Of a DNA stretch of 41,644 bases, positions 1 through 17,380 are shown piece by piece (positions within the stretch are counted from its first letter, which is position 1; each line of letters begins with the position of its first letter). The translations under genes and the position numbers were made by a program. The stretch comes from Gammaproteobacteria bacterium. Its GTDB lineage: Bacteria; Pseudomonadota; Gammaproteobacteria; Steroidobacterales; Steroidobacteraceae. Location: positions 1-41,644 of the forward strand of contig VBMV01000081.1 of assembly GCA_005878835.1 (NCBI GenBank), read 5' to 3'. The notes below the pieces were generated by a model. It was not told the origin of the DNA. It did no database searches and saw nothing but the letters and a program-made list of their open reading frames with translations.

Positions 1-552
1 TGGGAGCGGGTGCGCCTCGCTGGGGTCCAGATCGCGGGCAAGATATTCGTCGACAAGTATCCGATGAATACATTGAAGCTGCCGCTCATTGCGCGTCTTT
101 TTCCGCGCGCCAGGATCCTGTTCGCCTGGCGCGACCCGCGCGACGTGGTGCTGAGCTGTTTCCGACGGCGCTTCAGGATGAACCCGGCGATGTACCAGAT
201 GCTCACTCTGGGCGGTGCGGCTCGTTTATACGACGCGGTCATGGACTTTGCCGAGCGTGCCAGGCCGCTGCTCGGCCTCGAGTGGCACGAGGTGCGCTAC
301 GAGCGGCTGATGGCTGATCTTGCTGCCGAGATGCGTGCCGTCTGCAGTTTTCTCGGGCTCGAGTGGAGCCCTGCCATGCAGGACTTCGCCGCGCGCGCGC
401 AGGCGACCCAGCGAGCGACTCCGAGCACCGCGCAGCTCGCGCGCGGTCTCGATCCGTCCGGAGTCGGACACTGGCGACACTACCAGGCGCCGCTCGAGTG
501 GGTTCAGCCGGTGCTCGGGCGCTGGATCAAGCGGCTGGAACGCGATGGCTGA
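1..552 (+). CDS. TPR-type sulfotransferase, 3' part (cut by window start)
   Basis: This is the C-terminal 183 codons of a PAPS-dependent sulfotransferase (Sulfotransfer_3-like). The reading frame is open to base 1, so the apparent GTG at 10 is internal. It shares with the gene at 15740-17380 the block VDKYP.NTLKLPLIARLFP, then WRDPRDVVLSCFRRRFRMN, the usual 3'-phosphate-binding Arg...Ser region, and near the end TPSTAQL.RG followed by G.WRHY. The colinear match with that full-length paralogue suggests the missing N-terminal part holds TPR repeats and the 5'-phosphosulfate loop. It converges on the ERLACYD gene across a 61-base gap with no clear hairpin. The acceptor is unknown. The family is confident; protein sulfation is an inference. 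Confidence 0.85.
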   Translation, partial: WERVRLAGVQIAGKIFVDKYPMNTLKLPLIARLFPRARILFAWRDPRDVVLSCFRRRFRMNPAMYQMLTLGGAARLYDAVMDFAERARPLLGLEWHEVRYERLMADLAAEMRAVCSFLGLEWSPAMQDFAARAQATQRATPSTAQLARGLDPSGVGHWRHYQAPLEWVQPVLGRWIKRLERDG

Positions 553-613
553 AGCGGCGGCGAGGCGCGCGGGGCGGGGACGGCCGGCGGCTTTTGGCGC
601 TGAGCGCCAGCGT

Positions 614-1165
614 CTATTTCGTGCGTTGCACGCGGTAGGTGTGACGTGAGGGCGTCGTCATCAGGAATGAGCCAAGCGCGGCGCGCCGGATCGTCACCGC
701 GTCACCGGCATTCAGGCGCGCATCCGCGTCCTTGACGGTCCAGGACTGCCCGTTATCGAGCGATACCAGGACGCTCCCCTGGCGATCCACGCTGAGCCCG
801 GTCACCACCGCGCTGATCTGCTGCGGACCCGGCTCGCTGACAAGCGTGCGCCTGATCACTCCGAAGCTCGCCGCGTCGTCCGGCTTGCTCGCGGGGCGCG
901 CGGCCACGGCTGGGGCACCCTGCGGCTCCGGCGACTTAGGCTTCGCCCGCGCGTCGTAGCAGGCGAGCCGCTCGTCGGACGCCGCGATGCGGGCGCAGAA
1001 CAACGCGTCGTAGCAAGCGAGTCGCTCGTCGGCCGCCGTGATCACGGCGCAGCGCGCCATGTCGTTCGCACTGCCCGGCGGCGCGGCGCAGCCGAGCCCC
1101 GGAACCCCGACGGCCAGGCTATTAATCCACAGGAAGACGCGCGAGGCGCGCGGGTTGCCGCTCAT
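614..1165 (-). CDS. Small exported 'ERLACYD' protein, copy A
   Basis: This 183-residue protein has no assigned function. A hydrophobic N-terminal stretch (about residues 10-27, ending in GLGC) suggests export, perhaps as a lipoprotein, although the lipobox is poor. Two near-identical motifs follow, AADERLACYDA and ASDERLACYDA, each with a Cys 11 residues before the motif Cys, which may form disulfides in the periplasm. The C-terminal part (LDNGQSW...GDAVTIRRAALGSF) looks like a small beta domain. Its ATG overlaps the stop of the upstream hydroxylase as ATGA, indicating translational coupling. The protein at 13698-14243 has the same architecture and the same coupling to a paralogous hydroxylase, so the two gene products probably act together. 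ERLACYD-like motifs occur in many periplasmic proteins and do not define a function. Confidence 0.8.
   Translation of the reverse strand: MSGNPRASRVFLWINSLAVGVPGLGCAAPPGSANDMARCAVITAADERLACYDALFCARIAASDERLACYDARAKPKSPEPQGAPAVAARPASKPDDAASFGVIRRTLVSEPGPQQISAVVTGLSVDRQGSVLVSLDNGQSWTVKDADARLNAGDAVTIRRAALGSFLMTTPSRHTYRVQRTK
951..1058 (-). repeat. 54-bp tandem direct repeat (2 copies) inside the ERLACYD gene
   Basis: Two copies of about 54 bp start at 951 and 1005 with the same gcgtcgtagca and differ at a handful of positions. The period equals 18 codons, so the duplication keeps frame and produces the second ERLACYD motif. Copy B of the gene (13698-14243) has only one motif, so the duplication is probably recent and specific to copy A. 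Confidence 0.8.
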
Positions 1166-2472
1166 AGGGTCTTCGCCGCTGGCAGCGCGTAGTGACGCAC
1201 GTGGATTTCGGTTGCGGTCTGTACCAGTTCACGCTCGGCGGCACTGAGCAGCGGGTTCCAGATGTCGAAGATCAGGATCGCGCGCGGTGTGTCCGACAGA
1301 TTCCACGCCTCGTGCTGGATCGTGTCATCGAACACCCACGCCTGCCCCGGCAGCCACTCTCTGGTCGTCGCCCCGACCCGAAAGCCGCAGCCGGGCGGCA
1401 CGATGAGCGGCAGATGCACCGTGAGGCGTGTGTTCGTGACGCCGGTGTGGGGCGGAATTCGGGTATTGGCATCAAGGATCGAGAAGAACGCCGTCGGTGC
1501 GCGCGCCTCGATGCGCGCTCGCAGCGGTACCGCCTCGAGCACCCGTGCGGTCACCGGGCAGCGTGCGATGTGACCGGCATGGGGCTGACTCTGGTTCCAC
1601 AGGAAATAGGCGCTCCAGCGGCGCGAGCGGTTGAGCTCGCGAAACTGATCGAGCGGCATGTCGGGCGGAAAATCGATATAGGGTTGGAGCCCTTCACGGT
1701 CTGCGGCCAGCACGCGCAGCAGCTCGGCACGGATCTGATCGGCGGCCGCCTCGACCGCTTCCAGCCACGGAAAGTCCGCGCGCTCAAAGAATTCGATCGC
1801 CGGCAGTTCCGGAAAATACATCCAGGTCGGCTGCGAATAAAAGATCGACCGTCTGCCCAGCAGCGCTTCGAGGCACAGGTCAACCCGTCGCTGGCGCCCA
1901 CCACCGTGTCGCTCGCGGACCGCCGCCAGCGGCCCTTCGAGCTCGGCGGCGAGCGCCGCGTAGTCGGCCTCGACCAGCGCCTTGGCGTGGCTCAACGCCT
2001 CGCGGACGGCGGGCGCAGCTTCGGCGCCGGACGGGATGCAGGCGAGTGCGTTCTGGTAGGTGCGCGCCGCGCCGCGCACATCGCCCGACTGCTCGAGGTA
2101 AGCGCCCTTCTGCAGGAGTGCGCTGAGGTGGCGTGGCTCGAGTTGCAGCGCCTTCTCGAGGGCGTCCATCTCCTCGGCGCGCCGCCCCAGCGCGTTGAGA
2201 CTGCTCGCCAGGTTGGCCCACAGCGACGGGTGCCTGGGGTCCGCATCCGTCGCCCGCACGAACAACGCGTACGCCTGCTCCGCCGCTCCACGGCCGAGCA
2301 TGAGCACCCCGAGCTCGTTGAGCACGCCGGGATGGTTCGGAGCCTGGTGCGCCAGGCGGACCAGCAGCTGCTCGGATTCCGCGGCTCGCCCGGCCGCGGC
2401 TTCCGCCCGGGACGCTTGCAGGATCCGCGTGATGGTCGCGTCGTCCAACGGTGCAGGTAGTGCGGTGTTCAC
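1162..2472 (-). CDS. TPR-containing aspartyl/asparaginyl beta-hydroxylase, copy A
   Basis: This predicted 2-oxoglutarate/Fe(II) dioxygenase (436 residues) would hydroxylate Asp or Asn side chains in a polypeptide. TPR-like helical repeats fill roughly residues 25-170. The C-terminal AspH-type domain (about 285-410) has PPHTG with His342 and FDDTIQHEAWN with His387 as likely iron ligands, and Arg397 as the likely 2-oxoglutarate-binding Arg. By comparison from memory with human AspH, the position of Arg688 is Thr351 here. No signal peptide is visible, so it is probably cytoplasmic. The GTG start at 2472 follows a GGGGA ribosome site. The gene is divergent from the sulfotransferase at 2696 and coupled (ATGA) to the ERLACYD gene. 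It is nearly colinear with the paralogue at 14240-15553. Family certain; substrate unknown. Confidence 0.9.
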   Translation of the reverse strand: MNTALPAPLDDATITRILQASRAEAAAGRAAESEQLLVRLAHQAPNHPGVLNELGVLMLGRGAAEQAYALFVRATDADPRHPSLWANLASSLNALGRRAEEMDALEKALQLEPRHLSALLQKGAYLEQSGDVRGAARTYQNALACIPSGAEAAPAVREALSHAKALVEADYAALAAELEGPLAAVRERHGGGRQRRVDLCLEALLGRRSIFYSQPTWMYFPELPAIEFFERADFPWLEAVEAAADQIRAELLRVLAADREGLQPYIDFPPDMPLDQFRELNRSRRWSAYFLWNQSQPHAGHIARCPVTARVLEAVPLRARIEARAPTAFFSILDANTRIPPHTGVTNTRLTVHLPLIVPPGCGFRVGATTREWLPGQAWVFDDTIQHEAWNLSDTPRAILIFDIWNPLLSAAERELVQTATEIHVRHYALPAAKTL

Positions 2473-2578
2473 GGTTGTCCCCGGAGAGCCCTCGAGGTTC
2501 TCGCGGTGATTGTAGTCTCAGTGGCCACGCCGGCTCACGCGTGGATCGCTGACGGCTCGATGGGACTCGCCGGTGACG

Positions 2579-2608
2579 TTGACTGACTTGGACGGGTCAG
2601 CTTAGATA
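2579..2608 (+). promoter_or_regulatory. Candidate sigma-70 promoter for the 2696 sulfotransferase
   Basis: TTGACT at 2579-2584 is separated by 18 bp from TAGATA at 2603-2608, in the divergent 223-bp gap between the hydroxylase and the sulfotransferase. The -35 is good; the -10 matches at three of six positions. A transcript from here would have a leader of about 80 bases. Confidence 0.4.
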
Positions 2609-2695
2609 GGTTGCCCGCCGCGCGAGCGCACCCGCGCACCTCCCGTGCAGCGCGCGGCGGGCGCTCTGCCATCCTGTCGTTCCCGGAGTGCTCAA

Positions 2696-4708
2696 TTGAC
2701 AGCGAGTGCCCATGCCGACCTCGAGCTGATGCGTGCGTCGCTGCTGCTCGATTCCGACCCGGCAGGGGCCGCGCAACGGGCGACCGACATTCTCGCACGT
2801 TCACCGCGCCACACCGAGGCGAGCCTGCTGCTCGCCACCGCCCATCGCAAGGCCGGTGACCCGGCCGCCGCGGCTCGCCTGCTCGAACCCCTGGCACGGG
2901 ACCAACCCGAGTCGGCATTCATGCAGCTCGAGCTGGCGCGGGCCTATGCGGCTGACGGCTGCAACGCCGCGGCGCTGGCGGCACTGCGGCGTGCGGTCGC
3001 GCTCGATGCAGAGCTCGCCGATGCGTGGCGGGAGTTTGCAGCGCAGCTGTTCGCCGCCGGCGAGATTTCCGAGGGTGACCGCGCCGACGCGCGCTACCGC
3101 AGCCTGGTACGCGAGCCACCCGAGCTCGGCGATGCCCGCGTCGCGCTGGCGAACAAGCGCCTGCAAGCGGCCGAGACAATCCTGCGCCGCCATCTGCTGA
3201 GCGCGCCGCATGACGAAGTGGCACTCCGGATGCTCGCAGATGTACTGCTTAGGCGGGAAGACCAGGACGAAGCTGAACGGTGCCTGAGGAAGTGTCTCGC
3301 GCTCGCGCCGGGCTATGCCGCTGCGCGCCTTGATCTGGCGCACGTGCTGTATGCCCAGCAGCGGATCGTCGAGTTGCTGCCGATGGTGGAGCGGCTGCTC
3401 GCATCACAGCCCGACAACGTTGAATACCTCAGCTTCAAGGCAGCGGCGCTGCGACTTGTCGGCCGCAACGACGAGGCCATTGCGCTCATGGAAGGGGTCG
3501 TCGCGACCCACCCTGACAATGATCAGGCGTGGGTTCTCTTCGGCAATTTACTGCGCGAGGTCGGCCAGCAGACAAGGGCGATCGCCATGTATCAGCGGGC
3601 GCTCGTGGCACGACCCGGGTGCGGTCGCGCGTATGCAAGCCTCGCAAATCTTAAAACCTTCCGTTTCGACAGAGGCGATATCCAGGCGATGCGCGATGAG
3701 CTTGCGCGCAGTGCCATGGATGACGAGGATCGGCTGCATACCGAGTTCGCACTGGGCAAAGCGCTCGAAGATGCCGGCGAGTTCGCAGCGTCTTTCGAGC
3801 ACTATGCTCGCGGCAATGCACTCCAGCGCGCGCTCATCTTCTACGATCCGCGGGCGGTAACAGCGGAAATCCACCGGCATGTGGCCCTCTACACGGCCGG
3901 TTTCTTTGCCGAGCGTCGCGGCTGGGGAAGCCTGCAGCGGCAGCCGATTTTCATCGTCGGCGTGCCGCGCTCGGGATCGACCCTGCTCGAGCAGATGCTG
4001 GCCAGCCACTCGCAGGTCGAAGGCACGCACGAGTTGTCGGACATCGCCGCAATCGCGTTCCAGCTGTGGAGCGATAGTAGTGGCGCCGAGCGGCTGAACT
4101 ACCCGCAGCCGGTTGCTGCGCTCGATCAGCGGGGGATCGAGGCGTGCGCCGCGGGTTACCTGTCGCGTACTCAGCCGTACCGACCTCTGGGCAGACCCCA
4201 CTTCGTCGATAAGATGCTTGGAAACTTCGGCCATATCGGTTTCATCCACCTGATGTTTCCACACGCGGCGATCATTGACGTGCGGCGTCACCCGCTCGCC
4301 TGCGGCTTTTCCTGCTATAAGCAGCTCTTCATCCGCGGCCAGAAATTCAGCTACGACTTGCGGGAGTTGGGGCTTTACTATCGCGATTACATTACGCTCA
4401 TGGAGCATTTCGATTCGGTTCTTCCGCGCCCGGTGCACCGCGTGCACTACGAACAGCTCATTTCCGATCCTGAGGGTGAGTTGCGAAAGCTGCTCGACTA
4501 CTGCGGGCTACCGTTCGAAGAGCAGTGCCTGCGGTTCTACGAGAATCCGCGAGTCGTGCACACGATCAGCTCGGAACAGGTCCGCCAGCCGATTTACACC
4601 GAGAGTGTGGATCAATGGCGCCACTATGAAGCGTGGCTCGGCCCGCTACGGGAGGCGCTCGGCGATCTGGTGGAACGTTACCCGAGCTTCCCTCGCACTG
4701 CGACCTGA
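2696..4708 (+). CDS. TPR-containing sulfotransferase
   Basis: This 670-residue protein has about ten TPR-like repeats over residues 1-340, followed by a PAPS-dependent sulfotransferase domain. The 5'-phosphosulfate loop is VGVPRSGSTLLEQML (Pro at about residue 424), followed by HSQVEGTHELSDI with a Glu where protein sulfotransferases place a catalytic acid. A later HFVDKMLGNFGHIGFI and DVRRHPLACGFSCY give the 3'-phosphate-binding region. The TTG start at 2696 is chosen because GGAG lies seven bases upstream; GTG at 2645 and ATG at 2729 are alternatives. The family commonly sulfates peptides, sugars or lipids; the TPR array favours a polypeptide partner, which is inference. It ends 12 bases before the next TPR gene, so the two are probably cotranscribed. 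No signal peptide is visible. Confidence 0.87.
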   Translation: MTASAHADLELMRASLLLDSDPAGAAQRATDILARSPRHTEASLLLATAHRKAGDPAAAARLLEPLARDQPESAFMQLELARAYAADGCNAAALAALRRAVALDAELADAWREFAAQLFAAGEISEGDRADARYRSLVREPPELGDARVALANKRLQAAETILRRHLLSAPHDEVALRMLADVLLRREDQDEAERCLRKCLALAPGYAAARLDLAHVLYAQQRIVELLPMVERLLASQPDNVEYLSFKAAALRLVGRNDEAIALMEGVVATHPDNDQAWVLFGNLLREVGQQTRAIAMYQRALVARPGCGRAYASLANLKTFRFDRGDIQAMRDELARSAMDDEDRLHTEFALGKALEDAGEFAASFEHYARGNALQRALIFYDPRAVTAEIHRHVALYTAGFFAERRGWGSLQRQPIFIVGVPRSGSTLLEQMLASHSQVEGTHELSDIAAIAFQLWSDSSGAERLNYPQPVAALDQRGIEACAAGYLSRTQPYRPLGRPHFVDKMLGNFGHIGFIHLMFPHAAIIDVRRHPLACGFSCYKQLFIRGQKFSYDLRELGLYYRDYITLMEHFDSVLPRPVHRVHYEQLISDPEGELRKLLDYCGLPFEEQCLRFYENPRVVHTISSEQVRQPIYTESVDQWRHYEAWLGPLREALGDLVERYPSFPRTAT

Positions 4709-4720
4709 GTCCGCGCGCGG

Positions 4721-5695
4721 ATGACCAGCACAGCCACGCTCGCACGGGCGCTTACGCTGCAAAACGAGGGCCGCGTCGCCGAGGCCGTGGCGATGTATCG
4801 CGAGCTGCTCGCCCGCGAGCCTCTCGATGGGGATGCGCTGCATCTCCTGGGCGTCGCCGTGGCGAGACTCGGGCAGACGCAGGAGGCCGTGCGGTTGATC
4901 GGTGCGGCGGTGCAGCTGCAACCCTCCAACGCCGCGGCGCACGCCGACCTCGCCAATGCCCTCAGCGCCAGCGGCAGCCACGCGGAAGCTCTACCGTGCT
5001 ACGACCGCGCGCTCGCCCTGCAGCCCGATTTGGCGCGGGCATACCGCGGCCGCGGCGCCGCGCTCCTGGCCTTGGGTCAACCCGAAGCCGCTCAGGCGAG
5101 TTTCCGCGAGGCGCTGCGGCTGGCACCCAGCGACCATCAGGCGCTCAACGCCCTGGGCGTGGCACTCGAGCGTCTCAGTCGCCCTGACGAAGCGCGGCAG
5201 TGCTTCAGCCGAGCGATCACGCTCAATCCGGCCAATGTCGACGCACACCATAACCTCAGCCTCATCGAAGCCGCGGCGGGTCGGCACGCGGAGGCGCTGA
5301 TGCACATCGAGCGCGCGCTCGCTTTGCAACCGCTTCATCCGGCACTGCACACCAACCGCGGTACCGAGTTGCTCGCCCTGGGCCGGCCTGCCGAGGCGGT
5401 CGAGAGTTTCGACCGGGCGGTCGGCAGTTCGGGTGCCGGAGCCGCCCCGCACCACAACCGCGGGCTCGCGCTGGCGAGCCTCGGGCGGCACGCCGAGGCC
5501 CTCGCGAGCTTCGAGCGCGCGCTCGCGCTGGCACCGGAGGCTACTTCGACTCACCTGTGGCGGGGAAAGATGTGTCTGAAGCTCGGCCGGCCTGCCGAGG
5601 CGCTCGCGAGCTTCGACCGGGCGGCGCAGCTGGCGCCGCAGCAGTTCTGCTCGAGCGCTACGACGAATCCCTCGCGAGCTTCTCGACGGCTGTGA
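4721..5695 (+). CDS. TPR protein, N-terminal half of a frameshifted TPR-glycosyltransferase
   Basis: This reading frame encodes about eight 34-residue TPR units (for example LALQPDLARAYRGRGAALLALGQ, shortened: LALQPDLARAYRGRG) and nothing else. It runs out of frame at about 5645, ending in the non-TPR tail CSSATTNPSRASRRL. The next TPR unit resumes in another frame at about 5644 (VLLERYDESLASF) and continues into the downstream glycosyltransferase. Intact units here have 26 codons from the Pro of 'LAP' to the Phe of 'LASF'; across the junction that distance is 44 bases, about 34 short. A deletion of that size, not divisible by three, explains the break. The original gene probably spanned 4721-6900. 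It is either a pseudogene, a truncated TPR protein, or a sequencing or assembly error in repetitive DNA. Confidence 0.75.
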   Translation: MTSTATLARALTLQNEGRVAEAVAMYRELLAREPLDGDALHLLGVAVARLGQTQEAVRLIGAAVQLQPSNAAAHADLANALSASGSHAEALPCYDRALALQPDLARAYRGRGAALLALGQPEAAQASFREALRLAPSDHQALNALGVALERLSRPDEARQCFSRAITLNPANVDAHHNLSLIEAAAGRHAEALMHIERALALQPLHPALHTNRGTELLALGRPAEAVESFDRAVGSSGAGAAPHHNRGLALASLGRHAEALASFERALALAPEATSTHLWRGKMCLKLGRPAEALASFDRAAQLAPQQFCSSATTNPSRASRRL

Positions 5696-6900
5696 TTCTC
5701 AACCCAGACTCTGCGGAAGCGGTCGGCAACCGTGGCGCGGTGCTGGTGCGGCTGTTCCGTCCCGCCGAGGCGCTGCCGGACTTTGCCCGCGCTGTCGTGC
5801 TCAAGCCCGACTACGCCGATGCTTTTCTCAATGCCGGCATCGCCCGGCGCGGCCTCGGGCGTTACCGGGAGGCGCTCGACGATCTCGACCGCGCGCTCTC
5901 GATCCGGCCGGAAGATCCGACCGCCGCCTGGATGAAGGCATTGCTGCACCTCGCCCTCGGGGAGTTCCGCGAAGGGTGGCCACTGTACGAGTCGCGCGCG
6001 CAACTGCCGCATGCGCGCCAGCTGCAGCGCACGCTGCCGGGAACACGTTGGACCGGCACCGAGCCGCTTGCCGGCAGGACGCTGCTCGTTTACGCCGATC
6101 AGGGACTCGGGGACACGCTGCAGTTGTGCCGCTATATCCCGATGCTCGAGGCACTGGGCGCGAACGTCGTGTTCGAGGTGCAGCCGGCCCTCACGCTGCT
6201 GCTGCGCTCCCTCGGCATGCGCGGCAGGCTCGTCGGCCGCGGCGAGGCGCTGCCGGAGTTCGACCTGCACATCCCGCTGCTGAGCGTCCCGCTTGCCGTG
6301 CGCGCCGAGCTCGACAGCATTCCCGGCGGTGTTCCCTACCTGCGCGTCCACCCGGCCGCAATACGCTGGTGGGGCGAGCGGCTGGCCGCTTTGCCTGGCT
6401 TGAAGGTCGGGCTCAACTGGTGCGGCAATCCCGAGGCGGAGAAGGTGGCTGCCCTCGAGGCGCGCTCGTTTCCGCTCACCGCGGCAGCAGCGCTGGCGGG
6501 CGTCCGGGACGTGAGTCTCGTGTCGCTGCAGAAGGGCGCGGGCGCCGCGCAACTCGCCGAGGTGGCTTTCGGCAGCCAGCTCATGCAACTGGCCGATCCG
6601 CATCACATGGGGGCCGAAGAGCTCGCGGCAGAAACCGCGGCGATCATCATGGGGCTCGATGTGGTGATCACCTGCGACACGGCCCTTGCCCACCTGGCCG
6701 GTGCGCTCGGCGCGCGCGTGTGGGTGGTCCTGCAAGCGGTGCCGGACTGGCGCTGGCTCATCGGGCGCGAAGACAGCCCCTGGTACCCGACCATGCGACT
6801 CTTCCGTCAGCGCGTCGCGGGGGACTGGCCCGAGCTGTTCGAGCGCGTGGCGGCCGCACTTGCGGACTGGCGCGACGCCCGCGCAAAGGGTGTGACTTAG
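5557..6900 (+). CDS. TPR-GT-B glycosyltransferase-like protein, C-terminal half of the frameshifted gene
   Basis: Useful sequence begins at about 5644; the stretch 5557-5643 is an out-of-frame reading of the previous gene, and GTG at 5692 is an alternative start. Two to three TPR units are followed by a linker (FREGWPLYESRAQLPHARQL) and a domain with a GT9/GT-B-like pattern: LLVYADQGLGDTLQLCRYIP, FDLHIPLLSVPLA, VGLNWCGNPEAEK, SLQKGAG, and VITCDTALAHLAGALGARVW then DWRWLIGREDSPWYPTMRLF. Such TPR plus heptosyltransferase-like proteins are common in bacteria, with mostly unknown acceptors. The domain itself has no stops and keeps the family motifs, so decay, if real, is recent. It sits directly upstream of the GT41 gene (14 bases) and is probably in one transcript with it. 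Confidence 0.75.
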   Translation: MAGKDVSEARPACRGARELRPGGAAGAAAVLLERYDESLASFSTAVILNPDSAEAVGNRGAVLVRLFRPAEALPDFARAVVLKPDYADAFLNAGIARRGLGRYREALDDLDRALSIRPEDPTAAWMKALLHLALGEFREGWPLYESRAQLPHARQLQRTLPGTRWTGTEPLAGRTLLVYADQGLGDTLQLCRYIPMLEALGANVVFEVQPALTLLLRSLGMRGRLVGRGEALPEFDLHIPLLSVPLAVRAELDSIPGGVPYLRVHPAAIRWWGERLAALPGLKVGLNWCGNPEAEKVAALEARSFPLTAAAALAGVRDVSLVSLQKGAGAAQLAEVAFGSQLMQLADPHHMGAEELAAETAAIIMGLDVVITCDTALAHLAGALGARVWVVLQAVPDWRWLIGREDSPWYPTMRLFRQRVAGDWPELFERVAAALADWRDARAKGVT

Positions 6901-6914
6901 TCAGCCCCTGCCCC

Positions 6915-9119: not shown

Positions 9120-9241
9120 TCCTGGCGTCCGCGAGCGCCCGCGAGCCTCAACCCGACAGCTTGACCGGGCCGCAGTCGATGCGATGGTGGGGGCAAGTTC
9201 CGTCCGACCGGACGCGACCTCGGTCGTGGCGGTAGACCTGC

Positions 9242-9508
9242 GCGGTCGACTGTGTCGCGCGGGCGAGCGCATCGCCGACCGGCCCGAGAGCGGGATTCTG
9301 CGGTTCATGGATACCCGCCCCGGCCACAGACGGCTACCTCGACACGACCAACCGCCGGCTGCGCGCGCCGTTTGCACTGAAGGACCGCGAAATGCGGCTA
9401 GAAGAGGGCCGGGTGGTCGTCTTCTCTTCCTACCTCTTCCATGAAGTCGCGCCCTTCTACGGGCGCGATGCGCGCATTACCGTCGCGAGCAACTGCTGGT
9501 TGGTGTGA
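9242..9508 (+). pseudogene. Decayed 2OG-Fe(II) oxygenase remnant
   Basis: Translation in pieces matches the intact oxygenase at 12976-13647. ESGILRFMDTRPG is read in the frame of base 9286 and corresponds to DSGLLSFVSP; GYLDTTNRRLRAPF, then MRLEEGRVVVFSSYLFHEVAPF and ITVASNCW, are read in the frame of base 9332 and end at TGA 9506-9508. At least one shift lies at 9310-9332, and a one-base loss at about 9257-9263 (after AVDCV) is likely. The first roughly 125 codons, including the HNHP iron site, are not recognisable upstream. The remnant follows the GT41 gene and precedes the TonB receptor, mirroring the intact copy on the receptor's other side. Confidence 0.72.
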
Positions 9509-9584
9509 GCGTTCCCACTCGCTCGTCAGCGGTACCGGCCGCGACCAGCATCGTGCTGCGGGGGACCGGGCGTGTTCGAGATGT

Positions 9585-9608
9585 GCGCCCAGGTGGGCGC
9601 CCAGGTGG
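9585..9608 (+). repeat. 12-bp tandem repeat
   Basis: gcgcccaggtgg occurs twice in immediate tandem in the non-coding stretch 9509-9818. Apart from this and the promoter below, nothing else was seen in that 310-base stretch. Confidence 0.6.
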
Positions 9609-9727
9609 GCGAGCGCTCACGTAGCACGCGCCGCTTCACCTGCCGAGCCTGCGGTGACGCTGTGCAAGCCCCCCGTGCTGTGTGTTGCTTCAGCGCTACA
9701 AAATCTTGTGAAGTCTTGAATTGCACT

Positions 9728-9755
9728 TTGCAGGGCTAGTCGTGCCGTGTAGTAT
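9728..9755 (+). promoter_or_regulatory. Candidate sigma-70 promoter of the TonB-dependent receptor
   Basis: TTGCAG at 9728-9733, a 16-bp spacer and TAGTAT at 9750-9755 lie in a locally AT-richer stretch. The start codon is about 64 bases downstream of the -10 and is preceded by a strong GGGGAG ribosome site at 9805-9810. An overlapping TTGCAC at 9721 is an alternative -35. Confidence 0.5.
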
Positions 9756-9818
9756 TTCTGCACTTGCTCGCGCGCCCACGGCGCGCGCATTCACGTCCAC
9801 TTGAGGGGAGTTTACGGA

Positions 9819-12800
9819 ATGAACACGAGTCGCAATGTGCGGTCGGCGGTTCGCATCGCTCTCGCGGCGTGCGCGACGGCTGGGGCAATCCCGCTGGCTC
9901 ACGGTCAGGCAGCCCCGCCGCCGGCTGCTCCAGAGAAGCCGGTGGAGGAAATCGTCATCACCGGTTCGCGCATCGTGGTACCCAACCTGCAGAGCATAAG
10001 CCCGGTGTCGACGATCTCCAGCGCCGACATCGAGCAGACCGGCAAGACGCGCGTGGAGGACATCCTCAACTCCATGCCGCAGATCTTCGCCGCCCAGGGG
10101 GCCCAGGTCTCCAATGGCTCGAACGGCATTGCGACGGTCAACCTGCGCGGACTCGGTTCGCAGCGCACGGTCGTGCTGGTCAACGGGCGGCGCGTGCAGC
10201 CGGGCAGCCCCTCGGGCGGAACGCCGGCCGTCGACCTGGACTTCATCCCGGCAGAATTGATCCAACGCGTGGAGATTCTCACCGGCGGCGCCTCTTCGAC
10301 CTACGGCGCCGACGCGGTGGGCGGTGTCGTCAACTTCATCCTGAACGACAAATACCAGGGCGTGAAGTTCACCGCGGAATATGGGTTTTACAACCATCAC
10401 AACAGCAATGGCATCGACTCGACGGTCACTGCGCTGCCGAACTACACCTTACCGCCCAGCAGCGTGAACGTCGGCTACAACAGGGATTTCTCTTTTTTGA
10501 TGGGCATGAACACCCCGAACGATAAGGGCAATGCGACCTTTTACGCGACCTACCGGACCGCCGACCCGATTCTCCAGGCATCGTTCGATTACAGCGCCTG
10601 CACCCTGAACTCCGGCGATACCTTCAGCTGCGGTGGCTCGACGACCACTGCACCGCCGTTTTCGAACGGGCGATTCCGACCGCTCGATCCGACGAGCGGA
10701 GCACCGATCGGGCCGAATGCCACGTTCCGTGCCGATGGGTCGCTGCAGACATTTCCGAGCACCACGGCGTTCGCGGCAGCACAAGCCTACAATTTCGGTC
10801 CGCTCAACTACTACGCCCGCCCCGACGAGCGCTACACGCTCGGCGCGTTCGTTCACTACGACGTGGCCGAGCACGCCAAGGTCTATTCCGAGCTCATGTA
10901 CATGAACGATCGGAACGTCTCGCAGATCGCACCGAGCGGCGCGTTCTCACTTGGAAACCCGATCAATCCCGGCGGCGGACTCTTCGTCAATTGCGATAAT
11001 CCGCTCCTCAGCGCGGCGATGGTGAGCACCTGGTGCGCGCCGGGCAGCACGATCACGCAGAACGGGCTGACGGAGGCGCTGCTCGTCATCGGCCGCCGCA
11101 ATGTGGAAGGCGGAGGCCGTCAGCAGGACTTTACCTTCAGCGACTACCGGGCCGTGATCGGTGTCAGGGGGGATATCAACGAGGCCTGGAGTTACGACGT
11201 ATACGGCCTGCAGGGCAACACCACCCTCAGCAGCATCTATCTGAACGATCTCTCCTGGACCAAGATCCAGAACTCCCTGCTGGTGCAAAATGTCGGCGGT
11301 GTGCCAACCTGCACGTCGGTCATCAACGGGACCGATCCGGCCTGCGTGCCGTGGAATATCTTCCACGTCGGCGGTGTGACGCCGGCTGCCGCCAACTATC
11401 TGGCCATACCGCTGCTCGAGCGCGGCAGCACGCTGTTGCGCGTGGGCGAAGCGAGCGTGACCGGGGACCTCGGCAAATACAACGTGCAGCTGCCGACGGC
11501 GCGGAACGGGTTGAACGTGAATATCGGCGTCGACTGGAATCAGACCACACTGCATTTTCAGCCGGACTTCGCATTCCAGACGGCTCAGGGAGCCGGGCAG
11601 GGGTCTGCGACTTTGCCGGCGGGTGGCAGCGTCACGGCTCGTGAGCTCTTCCTCGAGGGGAAACTCCCCATCGTCGAAGACCATCCGGGGGCTGAGGTGT
11701 TCGGCGCTGAATTCGGCTACCGCTACTCCGACTACAGCCAGGCGCAGTCGGACAACGGCTCGGCCAAGCAGACCTTCAACGCCAGTACCTATAAGTTCGG
11801 GCTCGAATGGATACCGATCCATGATCTGAGGTTGCGCGGCAGCTTCCAGCGGGCCACGCGCGTGCCGAACGTGAATGAGCTCTATTCGCCGCAGGAGGTG
11901 GCGTTAGACGGAACCATCGACCCCTGCTCGGGACCGACACCCGCCTTCTCGCCGGCGCAATGCGCCCGAACCCACGTGACGGCCGCGCAGTACGGCCTCG
12001 TCGATAACAATCCGGCGAATCAGTACAACGGCTTCATCGGCGGCAATCCGAATCTGCAGCCGGAAAAGGCCGACACCATCTCGTTCGGCGTCGCCCTGCA
12101 GCCGCGCGCGGTCCCGGGGCTGCGCTTCCTGGTCGACTGGTTCGACATCAAGGTCGACAATGCCGTTCAGCAGCCTCAGGCCGACTTCACCCTTATCGAG
12201 TGCGGCGTCACGGGCGATCCGACCGCCTGCGGCCGTGTCCATCGCGATGCCAACGGCAGCATCCTGACTCAGACCGGGTACATTCAGGACCTGTTCACCA
12301 ACATCGGCCAGCTCCGGACGCGCGGAATCGATTTCGACGCCGGCTATCGGTTCGGCATCGGCCGCTTCGGCAATCTCGCGTTTTCGCTGATCGCCACGCA
12401 CCTGAATAAATACGAAGTCACGCCTCAGGTCGGCATTACCTACGACTGCGTGGGACTTTATGGACCGGTATGTTCCAGCACCGGCAGCGGAACCGGTGTG
12501 CCGACACCGGAGGATCGCTTCACCCTCGGAGCGCACTGGCAGACCCCGTACCGCGGCCTGGACGTGGGTCTCGCGGTGCGCTACATGAGCTCGGTGAAGC
12601 TGGAAACGTCCGGGTCCAACCCGTTCCTGTCACAGATCGGAGCAATCGTCGGTCTCCCGGCGACGGACCTGCGCCTCGGCAGCCGGAGTTACCTGGACCT
12701 GTCGGCGAGCATGAACGTGACGGAGAAGCTCAGGGCGCGGTTCGGCGTCAACAACCTGCTCGACAAGGATCCACCGATCAACGGCGGCAACGCCTGTCCG

Positions 12801-12887
12801 ACGGGTCCCTGCAACGGCAATACCTGGCCGACGTTCTATGACGCGACCGGGCGGTTCATCTTCTTCAATGTCTCCGCCGAGTTCTAG
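9819..12887 (+). CDS. TonB-dependent outer-membrane receptor
   Basis: This 1022-residue protein has a signal peptide (residues 1 to about 33, ending PLAHGQA), a TonB-box-like VEEIVITGSRI just after it, and a plug domain (about 60-190) with DILNSMPQIF, VNLRGLGSQRTVVLVNGRR and GGASSTYGADAVGGVVNF. The rest is a 22-strand-type barrel with long Ser/Asn/Gly-rich loops, and the protein ends in Phe (FFNVSAEF) as outer-membrane barrels do. It imports a large ligand using TonB energy; the ligand is unknown. ATG 9819 is chosen over the upstream GTG because of the GGGGAG site eight bases before it. It has its own promoter and terminator, so it is a single-gene unit inside the modification island. There is no N-terminal signalling extension for a FecI/FecR system. 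Confidence 0.95.
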   Translation: MNTSRNVRSAVRIALAACATAGAIPLAHGQAAPPPAAPEKPVEEIVITGSRIVVPNLQSISPVSTISSADIEQTGKTRVEDILNSMPQIFAAQGAQVSNGSNGIATVNLRGLGSQRTVVLVNGRRVQPGSPSGGTPAVDLDFIPAELIQRVEILTGGASSTYGADAVGGVVNFILNDKYQGVKFTAEYGFYNHHNSNGIDSTVTALPNYTLPPSSVNVGYNRDFSFLMGMNTPNDKGNATFYATYRTADPILQASFDYSACTLNSGDTFSCGGSTTTAPPFSNGRFRPLDPTSGAPIGPNATFRADGSLQTFPSTTAFAAAQAYNFGPLNYYARPDERYTLGAFVHYDVAEHAKVYSELMYMNDRNVSQIAPSGAFSLGNPINPGGGLFVNCDNPLLSAAMVSTWCAPGSTITQNGLTEALLVIGRRNVEGGGRQQDFTFSDYRAVIGVRGDINEAWSYDVYGLQGNTTLSSIYLNDLSWTKIQNSLLVQNVGGVPTCTSVINGTDPACVPWNIFHVGGVTPAAANYLAIPLLERGSTLLRVGEASVTGDLGKYNVQLPTARNGLNVNIGVDWNQTTLHFQPDFAFQTAQGAGQGSATLPAGGSVTARELFLEGKLPIVEDHPGAEVFGAEFGYRYSDYSQAQSDNGSAKQTFNASTYKFGLEWIPIHDLRLRGSFQRATRVPNVNELYSPQEVALDGTIDPCSGPTPAFSPAQCARTHVTAAQYGLVDNNPANQYNGFIGGNPNLQPEKADTISFGVALQPRAVPGLRFLVDWFDIKVDNAVQQPQADFTLIECGVTGDPTACGRVHRDANGSILTQTGYIQDLFTNIGQLRTRGIDFDAGYRFGIGRFGNLAFSLIATHLNKYEVTPQVGITYDCVGLYGPVCSSTGSGTGVPTPEDRFTLGAHWQTPYRGLDVGLAVRYMSSVKLETSGSNPFLSQIGAIVGLPATDLRLGSRSYLDLSASMNVTEKLRARFGVNNLLDKDPPINGGNACPTGPCNGNTWPTFYDATGRFIFFNVSAEF

Positions 12888-12912
12888 AAGGTAGAAGGCA
12901 AGCACGACTCGG

Positions 12913-12945
12913 ATACGGCGGGCGCGAGCCCGCCGTATTTTTTTT
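12913..12945 (+). terminator. Rho-independent terminator after the TonB receptor
   Basis: A perfect 11-bp stem, atacggcgggc / gcccgccgtat, with a gcga loop is followed by an eight-T run (12938-12945). It ends the receptor transcript 26 bases after the stop codon. Confidence 0.95.
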
Positions 12946-12975
12946 CGCCAGCCGAAGGCGCGTATCATCCAGACG

Positions 12976-13647
12976 ATGGCTGAGATCGCGCCGTTCTTTG
13001 CGGTCCCGTTCGGGTTCGCACGGCTGGATGACTGTGCGCCGTTGAATGAGCAGCTGCGCGAAACCTTCCTGCAACGCGCCGCCCTTGGGGCGGCCTATGC
13101 CAATCCGCGACCCATCACGCGCCGCAATCAGCAGGTCTATGAGAGCCGCTTCGACCTCTTTCGCTGGCCCGAGGCGCCGGTCCAGCACCTGAAGGAGTTC
13201 TGCTGGAGGGAGCTCATCCGCTGGGTCTGCGAGCTGAACCGTTATGACGACAAGGTTCGCGCGCAACTTCTGCTGTACGCGGACTCGTGGTTTCACATCA
13301 CCCGGCGTGGCGGTTTTTTTGCGTTACACAACCACCCCATGGCCTCCTGGTCCGGAGTCTACTGTGTGGACCCAGGGGGCCAGGACGTACAGCACCCCGA
13401 CAGCGGCCTGCTGAGCTTCGTGAGTCCCATGCTCACCTCCAGCATGTTCCTGGATGCCGCCAATAGCCAGCTACAGGGACCGTATGCGCACGGCGTCCGG
13501 AGCCTGCGGCTCGAGCCGGGGCAGTTGGTGCTGTTTCCGTCATGGATTCTGCACGAAGTCACCCCGTTCACCGGGGACGGCGAGCGCATCACGGTTTCCT
13601 TCAATGCCTGGTTCCGCTTAGCGGCGGACCCGCCGGCCTCGTCTTAG
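12976..13647 (+). CDS. 2OG-Fe(II) oxygenase (TIGR02466/2OG-FeII_Oxy_5-like)
   Basis: This 223-residue protein fits a family of putative 2-oxoglutarate and iron dependent oxygenases with unknown substrates. The double-stranded beta-helix core starts at ITRRGGFFALHNHPMASWSG (His118, His120), followed by GVYCVDPG and PDSGLLSF, then LFPSWILHEVTPF with His193 and GERITVSFN with Arg204, the likely second iron ligand and cosubstrate Arg. It starts 31 bases after the receptor terminator and has no obvious ribosome site, so its promoter is unclear. It converges on the second hydroxylase-ERLACYD pair. A decayed copy lies on the other side of the receptor (9242-9508). A role in hydroxylating a peptide or small molecule linked to the island is inference. 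Confidence 0.85.
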   Translation: MAEIAPFFAVPFGFARLDDCAPLNEQLRETFLQRAALGAAYANPRPITRRNQQVYESRFDLFRWPEAPVQHLKEFCWRELIRWVCELNRYDDKVRAQLLLYADSWFHITRRGGFFALHNHPMASWSGVYCVDPGGQDVQHPDSGLLSFVSPMLTSSMFLDAANSQLQGPYAHGVRSLRLEPGQLVLFPSWILHEVTPFTGDGERITVSFNAWFRLAADPPASS

Positions 13648-13697
13648 CCGCAAACCCTTTCGGCCCGTAAGATCCTTTCCAGCACAAGGCGATCCTT

Positions 13698-14243
13698 TCA
13701 GCGCAGCCGCTCGACTTTGGCCACGCGGCCGCCGGGAGCACGGATCCGGAAGGATCCGAAGGCCGCGCGCGAAATAACGACCGCATCGCCCGCGCGCACC
13801 AGCCATTGCTCGCCCTCGAGAACGCGCCAGACCTGTCCATTGTCGAGCTCGAGGACCGGTGAGCCTCCGCTTACGCTCAGCGCGCTCACCCGCGCCGTGA
13901 TGGAATCCAGCCTGACCGCATGGGCGCTGCCTGCCGGCGGCTGCTCGGGCGCGGATCGGCGCAAGCCGAACATTCGTTGCGCAGAAACCGGGGCAGCTTC
14001 CCGCGCGGGTCCGGCATCAGGACCCGGTGCGAGGGTGGCCGCGAGGCGGTCGTAGCACAGGAGTCGCTCGGAATCGCTGCCGAGCGTCGCGCACACACGC
14101 ACCTCATCGGCCAGCGTGTTGCCCTCCGGCTCGCCCGCCGGCACGAGTCCCGGCACTACGAGACACTCCGGCGCGAACAGCAGATGAATCGCAACCGCCC
14201 GCCGCCACCTGGACTTGCCGCCGCGAGCGCCCACGGCCTTCAC
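13698..14243 (-). CDS. Small exported 'ERLACYD' protein, copy B
   Basis: This 181-residue protein has a basic then hydrophobic N-terminus (SRWRRAVAIHLLFAPECLVV) suggesting export. One motif, DSERLLCYDRLA, is preceded by a Cys 11 residues earlier, and the C-terminal domain ELDNGQVWRV...GDAVVISRAAFGSF matches copy A. The frame is open to 14441, but GTG at 14243 is chosen because it overlaps the stop of the upstream hydroxylase as GTGA, exactly as ATGA does in copy A. The linker between motif and C-terminal domain is Ala/Pro-rich. The function is not known. Constant pairing with the hydroxylase suggests it is a partner or a substrate carrier; it might even be a target, which only biochemistry could show. 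Confidence 0.78.
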   Translation of the reverse strand: MKAVGARGGKSRWRRAVAIHLLFAPECLVVPGLVPAGEPEGNTLADEVRVCATLGSDSERLLCYDRLAATLAPGPDAGPAREAAPVSAQRMFGLRRSAPEQPPAGSAHAVRLDSITARVSALSVSGGSPVLELDNGQVWRVLEGEQWLVRAGDAVVISRAAFGSFRIRAPGGRVAKVERLR

Positions 14244-15553
14244 GCGGGGGGCGCCCTGCCGGACTCGCCGTCGTAGAACTCCCGGATACCCTGCGTCGCG
14301 CTGCGCACCAGCGCGCGCTCCGTCTCGGTCAGGTGCGGATTCCAGACATCGAAGATCAGGATCGCGCGCGCCCGGTCGCTCTCGTTCCAGGCCTCGTGTT
14401 CGAACGTGTCGTCGAAGACCCATGCTTCGCCAACTCGCCACTGGCGCGTTTCGGAGCCCACGCGAAAGCCACAGCCCTCAGGCACGACGAGCGGGACATG
14501 CACGATGAGTCGCGTATTGGTCTCGCCGGTATGAGGCGGGATACGGGTCCTGGCATCGAGTATCGAGAAGAAGGCATTGGGCCCATGCCCCGCTATGTCG
14601 ACTTGTGGCGTCCTTGAAAGCAGGGCGCTCGTGACGGGGCAGCGCGCGATGTGCGCTTCAATTCTGCTCCCCTCCTTCCACAGGAAATACGCGCTCCAAC
14701 GCCGCGAGCGATTGAGCTGCGCCCATTGATCCAGGGGCAGCCCATCCGCATGAGCAATGTAAGGCACCAGCTCACTTTGCTCATCGCGCAGCACACCTTC
14801 CACTTCTCGCCGCACCTCCTGGCTGGAGGCTTCAAACTCCTCAAGCCAGGGGAAGGCATCGCGATCGTGAAACTCCCAATCGGGCAGGCTGGGGAAGTAC
14901 ATGAAGGTCGGCTGTGGCCGGTAGATCGCGCGCTTGCCGAGAAAGGTATCGAGACAATGATCGAAGCGTCGCTGCGTCGAGGATCCGCGCGCTGACCGCA
15001 GGCCTTGCAGCTTCTGCCCCAGGTACTCTTCGAGCGCCGCATCATTCGCCTTCACGGCTGCCAGTGCCCGCTGAACGGGCTTCTGCAGCAGCGGCGGCAC
15101 CGCAGTCCCCGGCGCGATGGTCTGCAGCGCGGCCCGGTAGACCTTGGCGGCCGCCCGCGGCCGCTCGAGCAGCTCGAGCAAGGAGGCCTTCTGCAACAGC
15201 GCCAGCAGGTGACGCGGCTCGAGCGTGAGCGCGCGCTCGAGCGCCTGCATCTCGGCCTCGGGCGCCTTGAGGGCGCGCTGGATCGTCGCGAGATTGATCC
15301 AGAACGCGGGGTTGGTCGCATCGCGCGCGACGGCTCGTTCCGCGAGCTCCTTGGCCGCCTGCAGCTGACCCTCGTGCAGCTTCTGCATGCCGCGAGCGTT
15401 CAAAATCAGCGGGTGCTCGGGTGTGATCGTCTCGGCTTTTGCCAGCAGCTGCGTGGCCAGCGCGAACTCCCTCCTGGCCAGCGCGCGTTCGGCTTCTACC
15501 ACGAGCTCACGCAACTGCTCGTCATGCTTGCCCTCCTGTCTATTCGACTGCAT
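14240..15553 (-). CDS. TPR-containing aspartyl/asparaginyl beta-hydroxylase, copy B
   Basis: This 437-residue paralogue of the protein at 1162-2472 is almost gap-free against it: both have WSAYFLW at residues 286-292 and HIARCPVT about ten residues later. TPR-like repeats occupy about 10-170. In the AspH-type domain, PPHTG gives His341, FDDTFEHEAWN gives His386 and Arg396 is the likely 2-oxoglutarate Arg; the position comparable to human AspH Arg688 is Ile350 (alignment from memory). The ATG start follows an AT-richer intergenic stretch shared with the divergent sulfotransferase at 15740. Its stop overlaps the start of the ERLACYD gene. It is probably cytoplasmic, since no signal peptide is seen. 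Substrate unknown; copies A and B may have different targets, since their TPR surfaces differ more than their catalytic domains. Confidence 0.9.
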   Translation of the reverse strand: MQSNRQEGKHDEQLRELVVEAERALARREFALATQLLAKAETITPEHPLILNARGMQKLHEGQLQAAKELAERAVARDATNPAFWINLATIQRALKAPEAEMQALERALTLEPRHLLALLQKASLLELLERPRAAAKVYRAALQTIAPGTAVPPLLQKPVQRALAAVKANDAALEEYLGQKLQGLRSARGSSTQRRFDHCLDTFLGKRAIYRPQPTFMYFPSLPDWEFHDRDAFPWLEEFEASSQEVRREVEGVLRDEQSELVPYIAHADGLPLDQWAQLNRSRRWSAYFLWKEGSRIEAHIARCPVTSALLSRTPQVDIAGHGPNAFFSILDARTRIPPHTGETNTRLIVHVPLVVPEGCGFRVGSETRQWRVGEAWVFDDTFEHEAWNESDRARAILIFDVWNPHLTETERALVRSATQGIREFYDGESGRAPPA

Positions 15554-15739
15554 GCTCGAGCCCGGCAGGCGTGTGCGCCGCTCCGTTTGGCAATGGCCCC
15601 TGCCTCATCACAGCATGATTTTGACGTGCGCAAATAAAAAAGTCATGTCACCGGGCGAGCACCGCGCCCGCGCTCCGACGGCGCCCAGCCTCGGGCTGGC
15701 CAGACTCGCTTTCGTCCACCGGCGCAGCTGGCCCAAGCC

Positions 15740-17380
15740 ATGAACAGCGCAGCGCGCGACCCGTCCGCCGATCGCGAAACGGTCCGCGAGGTGCATCGGC
15801 TGGCTTCCGCGGGCGATTTAACCGGCGCGGCCGCCGCGGCGCTTGCCGCATTGGGTGCCGGGTTGGAGCATCCGCTGCTGCTCAATGTGGCCGCGCTGCA
15901 GCTGGAGCGCGAAGGCAGGTTCGAGGACGCATGCCGCTACCTGCGGCGCGCGATCGAGCTTGCGCCGCAGGATATTGGTGCGCGCAATGCCCTGGGGCTC
16001 TGCCTGCAGAGCCTGAATCGGGACGCTGAAGGCCTGGCGCACTTTGACGCCGTCATCGCCCTCGCTCCGCAGGCGGCGTTTGGCCATGCAAACCGCGGTC
16101 GGGCGCTACTGGCGCTGGGGCGAATTGAAGAGGCGCACGGCAGTTTCCACAAAGCCCTGGAACACGAATCGAACGTCGCTGCGCTCGCCGGACTCGCCGC
16201 AATCGCCACGTTTCGCGGCGATCATTCCCAGGCGCGCCAACTTGCTGAAAAGGTCCTCAAGGTCGAGCCCAACTATCCCGATGCCGTGATGAGCATCGCC
16301 GCCGCGGATCTGGCAGCGGAGCAACCGCAAGAGGCAGCGCGCGGCCTGCGCGAGCTTCTGGCGGACCGCCGTGTGGCTCCGGTCGACCGCGCCCACGCAC
16401 TGTCGATGTTGGGTGATGTGCTGGACGCGCAGCACCGCTATGCCGAGGCATTCGCGGCCTACACCGAATCAAATGAACAACTGACCACGATCTACTCATC
16501 TCAGTACGCCGGGGGCGAGACGGCACTGGAATTCACCCGGCTCCTGACCGAGCAGTTTCAGAACGTCCCGCCACACCGGTGGGCGCCATGCGCGCCCGGG
16601 AAGGGGGCAACGGGTGCCGTCCGCCATGTTTTCCTGATCGGCTTCCCGCGCAGCGGCACGACTCTGCTCGAGGCGGCTCTCGAGGGTCATCCGGCGATTC
16701 AAAGCCTGGAAGAGCAGGAGCTGATGATTGACTCGGTTGGCGCTTACCTCGGGCGACCGGAGTACGTTCACCGCCTGGCGGCCGCCAGTAATTCCGAGCT
16801 GCAAGGTTTTCGCGACGCCTACTGGCGGCGCGTTCGTGACGCAGGAATCGACCTGGCGAACAGAGTCTTCGTGGACAAGTACCCGCTGAACACCTTGAAA
16901 CTCCCGCTGATCGCCCGTCTGTTTCCGGATGCGAAGATCCTGCTGGCACGTCGCGACCCGCGCGATGTCGTGCTGAGCTGCTTTCGTCGCAGATTTCGCA
17001 TGAATGCTCCCATGTTCCAGCTGTTGAGCCTCGACGGCGCGGCGCGCTTTTATGACACGACCATGAGGGCGGCGGAGGTGTTCCAGGAGAGGCTCAAGCT
17101 GGAGTTGCGCGTGGCGCAACATGAAATGATCGTCGGCGACTTTCGCTCCGAACTGACCGCGATTTGCACCTGGATCGGGCTGGACTGGACCGACGCCATA
17201 CGCGCTGTCGATCAACGATCGAGCAAGCGGGCGGTTGTGACGCCCAGCACGGCGCAGCTGGTGCGCGGTGTCGACTCGGCAACCGTCGGCCAGTGGCGCC
17301 ACTACGCGCCGCAGCTGGCGTCCGTGCTCCCGATCCTGGAGCCGTGGGTCCGCAAGTTCGGATACGACAGTCGACCGTGA
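15740..17380 (+). CDS. TPR-containing sulfotransferase, full-length paralogue of the left-end gene
   Basis: This 546-residue protein has about six TPR-like units (residues 10-230) and then a sulfotransferase domain. The PAPS 5'-phosphosulfate loop is LIGFPRSGTTLLEAALEGHP (Pro at about 303), followed by SLEEQELM, resembling the catalytic Glu segment of tyrosylprotein sulfotransferases. VFVDKYPLNTLKLPLIARLF and RRDPRDVVLSCFRRRF form the 3'-phosphate-binding region. The C-terminal 180 residues match the truncated gene at 1-552. It is divergent from hydroxylase B across 186 bases that include an AT-rich pocket (about 15615-15650) without a convincing promoter. It converges on the M19 dipeptidase gene, 12 bases away. 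Protein or peptide sulfation is favoured by the TPRs and the Glu segment but is inferred. Confidence 0.9.
   Translation: MNSAARDPSADRETVREVHRLASAGDLTGAAAAALAALGAGLEHPLLLNVAALQLEREGRFEDACRYLRRAIELAPQDIGARNALGLCLQSLNRDAEGLAHFDAVIALAPQAAFGHANRGRALLALGRIEEAHGSFHKALEHESNVAALAGLAAIATFRGDHSQARQLAEKVLKVEPNYPDAVMSIAAADLAAEQPQEAARGLRELLADRRVAPVDRAHALSMLGDVLDAQHRYAEAFAAYTESNEQLTTIYSSQYAGGETALEFTRLLTEQFQNVPPHRWAPCAPGKGATGAVRHVFLIGFPRSGTTLLEAALEGHPAIQSLEEQELMIDSVGAYLGRPEYVHRLAAASNSELQGFRDAYWRRVRDAGIDLANRVFVDKYPLNTLKLPLIARLFPDAKILLARRDPRDVVLSCFRRRFRMNAPMFQLLSLDGAARFYDTTMRAAEVFQERLKLELRVAQHEMIVGDFRSELTAICTWIGLDWTDAIRAVDQRSSKRAVVTPSTAQLVRGVDSATVGQWRHYAPQLASVLPILEPWVRKFGYDSRP

Follow-up and report, generated by a model that had tools for sequence, protein, structure and literature searches.

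Possible receptor-modification cassettes of sulfotransferases, AspH-type hydroxylases and TonB-dependent receptors in a bacterium of the family Steroidobacteraceae

Introduction

Sulfation of tyrosine and hydroxylation of aspartate or asparagine in proteins are, to our knowledge, associated with the eukaryotic secretory pathway and have seldom been described in bacteria. Tyrosine sulfation is known in Xanthomonas from the RaxST-RaxX pair. Here we analyze a contig of a gammaproteobacterium from the family Steroidobacteraceae (VBMV01000081.1 of assembly GCA_005878835.1), all 41,644 nucleotides of which are called the window, and in it an island (positions 1-17380) where sulfotransferases (STs) with tetratricopeptide repeats (TPR) and TPR hydroxylases of the human AspH type stand beside a gene for a TonB-dependent receptor (TBDR). 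Each of the two hydroxylase genes is coupled to a gene for a secreted-type ERLACYD protein (ERL). Sulfation of an exported polypeptide in such a bacterium would parallel that of RaxX by RaxST. The island differs in that a small precursor was not found here (558 small open reading frames) and in that its set also includes hydroxylase, ERL and TBDR.

The nearest solved structure to the hydroxylase domain is human AspH. According to PMC6817910, Gln627 and Lys666 of this enzyme hold the carboxylate of the substrate Asp, and its hydroxylation of EGF domains requires the TPR domain. The bacterial hydroxylases share with it the order of domains, the two-His Fe site in which Gly replaces the acid, the Ser, His and Arg of the 2-oxoglutarate (2OG) site and the oxygenase fold. 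They differ in lacking a strongly hydrophobic N-terminus, in the replacement of the substrate-carboxylate residues and in the modelled arrangement of the domains. TPST1 and TPST2 appear to be related by sequence to the ST at 15740-17380, with the PRSGTT motif, a Glu-Glu pair and a Lys aligned, whereas the bacterial enzyme has a TPR arm in front. O-GlcNAc transferase and SPINDLY, of the GT41 family, have a counterpart in a TPR enzyme with a PF13844 domain encoded in the island, but this gene is not a core part of the set (the O-GlcNAc transferase profile matched only the window and L041 among the 81 loci described below).

Results and Discussion

Recurrence of the set was examined in 78 loci, which were obtained by scanning genome contigs with a four-paralogue query (the top 80 among 338 matches) and are therefore biased to close relatives. 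Together with the window and the loci L007 and L008 they hold 91 hydroxylases in 81 loci. Genes were called with our own codon-model caller and with profiles grown from window genes, so ERL ends may be off and some ERL genes missed. What recurs is a set of TBDR, TPR-STs, TPR-AspH-type hydroxylase, ERL and PF13759 oxygenases: within six genes of the hydroxylase a TBDR is present in 70 of 91 cases, an ST in 66, an ERL in 59 and a PF13759 oxygenase in 56. The receptor, which the original prediction had left out of its unit, is a regular member of such neighborhoods. Of 90 hydroxylases, 44 are followed immediately by an ERL gene on their own strand, and the overlap is exactly 4 bases in 19 pairs from 18 loci. 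The gene next after ERL is a convergent ST in 25 of 41 cases, and a divergent ST stands upstream of the hydroxylase in 25 of 88.

To these counts we added a sample of 60 evenly drawn genomes of the family (24 genera), in which coupling was counted with the 47 of 58 ERL rows that had an E value of 1e-12 or better. It contained 52 hydroxylases in 32 genomes; ERL was directly downstream of 19 of them, in 14 genomes from 8 genera (counted by hand), otherwise within 6 kb of 11 more, and missing for 22. Seen from the other side, 19 of the 47 strong ERL matches follow a hydroxylase. Both genes occur in 20 genomes, the hydroxylase alone in 12, ERL alone in 7 and neither in 21 (Fisher P 0.004). A sample of 50 genomes from the order has ERL in 31 and PF05118 in 25, with no adjacency seen by eye outside our own genome. 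Close coupling of hydroxylase and ERL is thus mainly a trait of this family; L079 and L085 are cases that carry the labels Nevskia and Lysobacteraceae. Loci labelled Alphaproteobacteria, among them L053, L058, L064 and L073, have hydroxylase, ST and receptor without ERL downstream. The coupling does recur in other genomes, as the original prediction required of a system. ERL, on the other hand, is not confined to places with a hydroxylase.

In the window the coupled pair is found twice on the minus strand, as originally described: AspH1 (2472-1162; PF05118, E 4.6e-43; human AspH, E 1.9e-23) with ERL1 (1165-614), and AspH2 (15553-14240; PF05118, E 1.5e-44) with ERL2 (14243-13698), each with an overlap of 4 bases. 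Both hydroxylases have TPR and PF05118 domains and are 51% identical, the two ERL proteins 38% over 137 columns. AspH1 belongs to class I and AspH2 to class II of the hydroxylase tree. On the plus strand, a TPR-ST with a PF13469 domain diverges from each pair, namely ST-B (2645-4708, E 4.7e-47, with an uncertain start at 2645 or 2696) and the TPST-like ST at 15740-17380 (E 4.5e-28). Both pairs also converge with a plus-strand gene across a short gap, of 61 bases to ST-A (1-552, the C-terminal 183 residues of an ST cut by the contig edge; PF13469, E 7.7e-24) and of 50 bases to a PF13759 2OG-Fe(II) oxygenase (12976-13647, E 8.8e-20).

The view that these are two copies of one conserved duplicated unit is correct on the coupling and wrong on the composition. 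The divergent STs are only 26% identical and fall in separate clades, so they are not counterparts, and the 15740 gene is more closely related to the fragment at the contig edge (52% identity). In a tree of 125 STs from the loci, a clade of 26 rows contains 24 of the 25 hydroxylase-divergent STs, ST-B included, and the 15740 gene is the sole divergent ST outside it; ST-A is in a clade of 16 rows that contains 11 ERL-convergent STs. Because of these positions of the divergent and convergent STs, copy 1 has the commonest arrangement (ST-A > < ERL < AspH ST-B >), from which copy 2 deviates. The two STs also differ in their nearest solved structures: that of the 15740 enzyme is TPST2 (human; E 1.8e-12), while ST-B is about equally near to the polyketide sulfotransferase CurM (E 1.3e-9) and to TPST1 (3e-9), and thus not TPST-specific. 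One TPR-ST of another locus (L008, 9851-12100) carries a SEC-C zinc motif at its N-terminus.

Our own genome (4.18 Mb in 186 contigs) has a third pair, on contig C72, accompanied by a receptor, STs, a GT9-type gene and a PF13759 oxygenase, and a fourth hydroxylase, on C156, beside a receptor and without adjacent ERL. The three ERL genes detected in this genome each follow directly after a hydroxylase.

The original prediction allowed that the two copies might stem from a recent, neutral tandem duplication. For the hydroxylases this is refuted, since they are old and under purifying selection: dN is 0.16-0.20 and dS 0.85-1.35 for copy 1, and dN 0.35-0.39 and dS 1.3-1.5, near saturation, for copy 2. 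ERL genes, with dN 0.49-0.61 and dS 0.77-1.37, have a ratio nearer to one half, which indicates weaker constraint. The hydroxylase tree places copy 1 in a clade of 17 rows, 16 of them ERL-coupled. The clade of copy 2 has 7 rows with 5 coupled, and that of the C72 copy has 12 rows with 11 coupled. Each copy groups with hydroxylases of other genomes, by which a recent tandem duplication is ruled out.

Receptors follow a similar pattern. In a tree of 65 receptors, which were assigned to classes by hand from the hydroxylase tree, with two-class loci set apart, the window receptor falls among those of class II, the receptor on C72 among those of class III and the one on C156 among those of class Ic. 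Class labels change 16 times on this tree; the minimum is 8, the mean of shuffled labels 43, and none of 200 shufflings was as low. Distances between hydroxylases and between receptors are correlated (0.35 for 61 pairs, a value that none of 2000 permutations reached). Judged from these trees, the copies are old lineages that have mostly kept matching TBDR lineages, with exceptions.

Proximity of these genes to receptors extends to the rest of the genome, in which 36 plug domains and 12 PF13469 matches were counted. Within 10 kb of a plug domain, in zones that make up at most 18% of the genome, lie 10 of 12 STs and all four TPR-hydroxylases (coordinates read by eye). Counted as clusters, 5 of 7 ST clusters are near a plug domain (P about 0.003), and one of the misses, C40, is a 3.2-kb contig of little weight. 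When conserved D, N, Y and C columns were listed for 69 receptors, no particular site was indicated. On three other contigs (C140, C106 and C1; L148-L150) TPR-STs directly adjoin smaller TBDRs, with gaps of 14, -47 and 35 bases, the C140 neighbor being judged by its plug domain.

The window is the entire contig C27, so the island is truncated at position 1. Contig C7 probably continues it leftward, as suggested by gene order, because six loci hold the hydroxylase between zwf and a gene of the 6-phosphogluconolactonase (pgl) type. At the end of C7 (L146, G000:C7:1-12000) there is a receptor with 67-69% identity to the class I receptors of L018, L037 and L014, followed by two PF13759-type genes, the second of which encodes a protein without a Pfam match at 1e-8, and by a 6-phosphogluconolactonase-type gene. 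On the other side of the island, an M19 dipeptidase gene (17393-18760), matched too in L008, L026 and L033, is followed by glucose-6-phosphate dehydrogenase (zwf) and 6-phosphogluconate dehydrogenase-type genes, and then by further genes of housekeeping appearance, as judged from the gene calls.

Between the two coupled pairs the plus strand holds further features. A TPR-GT9-type gene is broken by a frameshift into two pieces (4721-5695 and 5557-6900), of which the second has a PF01075 match under its cut-off and 74% identity to the intact paralogue P0020 on C72. The frameshift lies within the repeats, where one spacing is 68 instead of 102 bases, and may reflect decay or an assembly error. 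The TPR-GT41 glycosyltransferase, similar to O-GlcNAc transferase and SPINDLY, is at 6957-9119 by the codon-model caller; its PF13844 match (E 2e-79) was obtained on the longer frame 5976-9119. Upstream of the receptor gene is the remnant of a PF13759 oxygenase (9242-9502, the C-terminal 87 residues; tblastn E 6e-26 and 53% identity to a C7 oxygenase). The receptor itself (P0008, 9819-12887) has its plug domain, PF07715, at 9993-10328.

The AlphaFold model of AspH1 (mean per-residue confidence, pLDDT, 93.5) has human AspH as its best fold match, with a template modelling score of 0.82 on the target for the oxygenase domain and of 0.39-0.40 for both domains together. Cofactor residues are kept throughout the alignment: columns S331, H342, H353 and H387 are invariant in 91 of 91 hydroxylases and R397 is present in 90. 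The Fe site has the H-x-G form of human AspH (G344 in 89 of 91), that is, two His without an acidic ligand. A PADLOC anti-phage scan of five proteins gave two weak matches, to the TPR region and to a generic 2OG model, and no convincing core match.

ERL2 is modelled by AlphaFold as a helical hairpin with a small beta-barrel, a fold for which the PDB gave no significant match (best E 0.047). In ERL1 a 54-base tandem repeat (950-1057) doubles the DERLACYD motif, which is unique to this protein among 33 aligned ERL proteins. The C..RLxCYD motif resembles the start of PF11319, the VasI/TagO family of type VI secretion, whereas the C-terminal part of ERL is modelled as a small beta-barrel; identity with VasI/TagO was rejected, as scores stay under the cut-offs (23.7 of 26.5 bits for PF11319, 22.7 of 124.2 bits for TIGR03360). 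It is also unlikely that ERL is the substrate of the hydroxylase through the CYD aspartate, which is kept in all 20 ERL proteins from loci without hydroxylase; in those from hydroxylase loci it is kept in 53 of 57 (two gaps, one N, one E).

These 20 loci, from 19 genomes, are a subset of the ERL matches of the order sample, and 15 of them have a TBDR (12, counting the 91-residue fragment of L127), an ST (11) or a PF13759 gene (3) in the fetched stretch. Among 12 PF05118 loci of the same sample only 4 have such genes (TBDR 1, ST 1, PF13759 4). The more fitting view of ERL is thus that it accompanies the receptor islands and not just the hydroxylase. In five loci (L044, L050, L052, L054 and L059) a common protein family stands beside hydroxylase or ERL, and the two members scanned (L044 and L059) are retropepsin-like aspartyl proteases (PF13650).

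From the composition of the island, its recurrence, the coupling of hydroxylase and ERL, the largely matching lineages of receptors and hydroxylases and the kept cofactor sites, we tentatively read the region as two adjacent, anciently diverged receptor-modification cassettes, each acting on its cognate receptor or on a co-exported protein, a reading we consider quite possible, if short of probable. The class I cassette would comprise positions 1-4708 and probably continue on C7, and the class II cassette would comprise 9819-17380; both probably lie between zwf and, on the probable neighboring contig, the 6-phosphogluconolactonase-type gene. Each would combine a large outer-membrane TBDR with its enzymes, which are TPR-STs, one of them TPST-like, the TPR-AspH-type hydroxylases and PF13759 oxygenases (here without TPR), with the TPR-GT41 enzyme encoded between the cassettes. 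In the working that we infer, TPR arms would grip the unfolded polypeptide in the cytosol, the site of the sulfate donor 3'-phosphoadenosine 5'-phosphosulfate (PAPS), 2OG and Fe(II). The enzymes would there put sulfate and hydroxyl groups on side chains of the cognate receptor or co-exported protein before Sec export, and exported ERL may assist or read the modified receptor in the periplasm. Sulfation and hydroxylation, which the original prediction took to be joined in one functional unit, would then meet on one shared target.

Several observations weigh against this reading. Neither a modified residue nor a substrate was observed. Linkage and relatedness alone make trees congruent, hence matching lineages show co-inheritance and not contact, and the match has exceptions. 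In class II the receptor of L047 and one of two in L040 group elsewhere, and in class I so do the receptor of L021 and one of two in L037. L047 is a locus of Steroidobacter gossypii, where a class II-type hydroxylase has PF13759, ERL and TBDR genes close by. Eight of the 91 hydroxylases lack all four partners in the six-gene neighborhood. ERL is widespread without hydroxylase, and 5 of the 20 such loci have no TBDR, ST or PF13759 gene in the fetched stretch. A strongly hydrophobic N-terminus in 0 of 90 AspH-type proteins, 4% of 120 STs and 67% of 58 ERL proteins does agree with the reading, but the crude hydropathy measure used for it is a poor one, as only 42% of 72 TBDRs and 31% of 68 PF13759 proteins pass it. 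The positions of Gln627 and Lys666 are, by our count, occupied by Ala288 (A in 76 and V in 10 of 91) and Phe329 (F in 67, M in 10 and L in 6 of 91). Asp/Asn hydroxylation is therefore not assured, and the hydroxylase may catalyze another reaction. Finally, in table 2 of PMC10040529 the families 1738-1748, from Pontixanthobacter and its kin, include lasso B2, sulfotransferase, aspartyl beta-hydroxylase, sulfotransferase, PqqD and asparagine synthase. By their numbers the family listing puts ST and aspartyl beta-hydroxylase next to lasso-peptide genes, although adjacency is unstated in the text of the table, and a peptide target therefore stays open. As far as that table goes, these families might represent a cluster for a sulfated, hydroxylated lasso peptide.

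The rival that survives best, although we consider it unlikely, is that the enzymes tailor a small exported peptide, similar to ribosomally synthesized and post-translationally modified peptides and perhaps of the lasso kind, which the receptor takes back up by itself or as a metal complex. Protein-modifying enzyme families beside an uptake receptor would suit such a role, as would the dipeptidase gene that adjoins the island in four loci, and both enzyme names co-occur in the lasso-peptide sets of the above table. The island differs from these sets in that PF13471, the lasso B2 type, has no match in our own genome; it is also absent from 13 more of the 18 genomes searched, and in the other four it is never on a contig with a listed hydroxylase. 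Likewise, 558 small intergenic open reading frames yielded no conserved precursor family, the largest clusters looking like frames over a tRNA gene. A precursor or a maturase of another type may be located elsewhere. Three loci (L060, L062 and L072) have small exported-type frames near the hydroxylase with a common C..TG.R.G...C pattern.

Distinctly unlikely, in our estimate, is that hydroxylase and STs act on lipids or small molecules, in the manner of LpxO, OlsC and CurM, with the TPRs only holding enzymes together. The loss of the acidic-substrate pocket of human AspH and the CurM match of ST-B would agree with such chemistry. The NCBIfam models of OlsC and LpxO do match AspH1, but with 90.7 and 51.9 bits they remain far under their equivalog cut-offs of 450 and 500 bits, and the H-x-G Fe site, the fold match to human AspH and the TPST match of the 15740 ST speak against this rival.

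That the genes merely accumulate at shared sites, receptor co-location reflecting joint transfer and not joint function, is improbable: island content does differ between loci, and the broken GT9-type gene and the oxygenase remnant speak for turnover, but the 4-base overlap of hydroxylase and ERL recurs, ST lineages hold their positions, and the zwf and pgl-type genes that flank the hydroxylase are the same in six loci.

Conclusions

The single gene families of the island are already known. For the receptor-linked set no description was found in the literature searched, which consisted of listings and abstracts, with subscription journals and preprints mostly outside it; the set could be categorically new if receptor modification were shown. 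In the farthest-reaching form of our reading, which we regard as doubtful, paralogue-matched sets of TPR-guided STs, hydroxylases and oxygenases, with or without a glycosyltransferase, would decorate individual outer-membrane receptors before export. The AspH-type enzyme would have a new side-chain specificity, periplasmic ERL would handle the decorated receptor, and the whole would be a bacterial counterpart of the eukaryotic secretory toolkit. If true, receptor islands of this kind would offer a concrete place to seek sulfated and hydroxylated proteins in bacteria. They might also account for receptor specificity and would give the ERLACYD family a first role.

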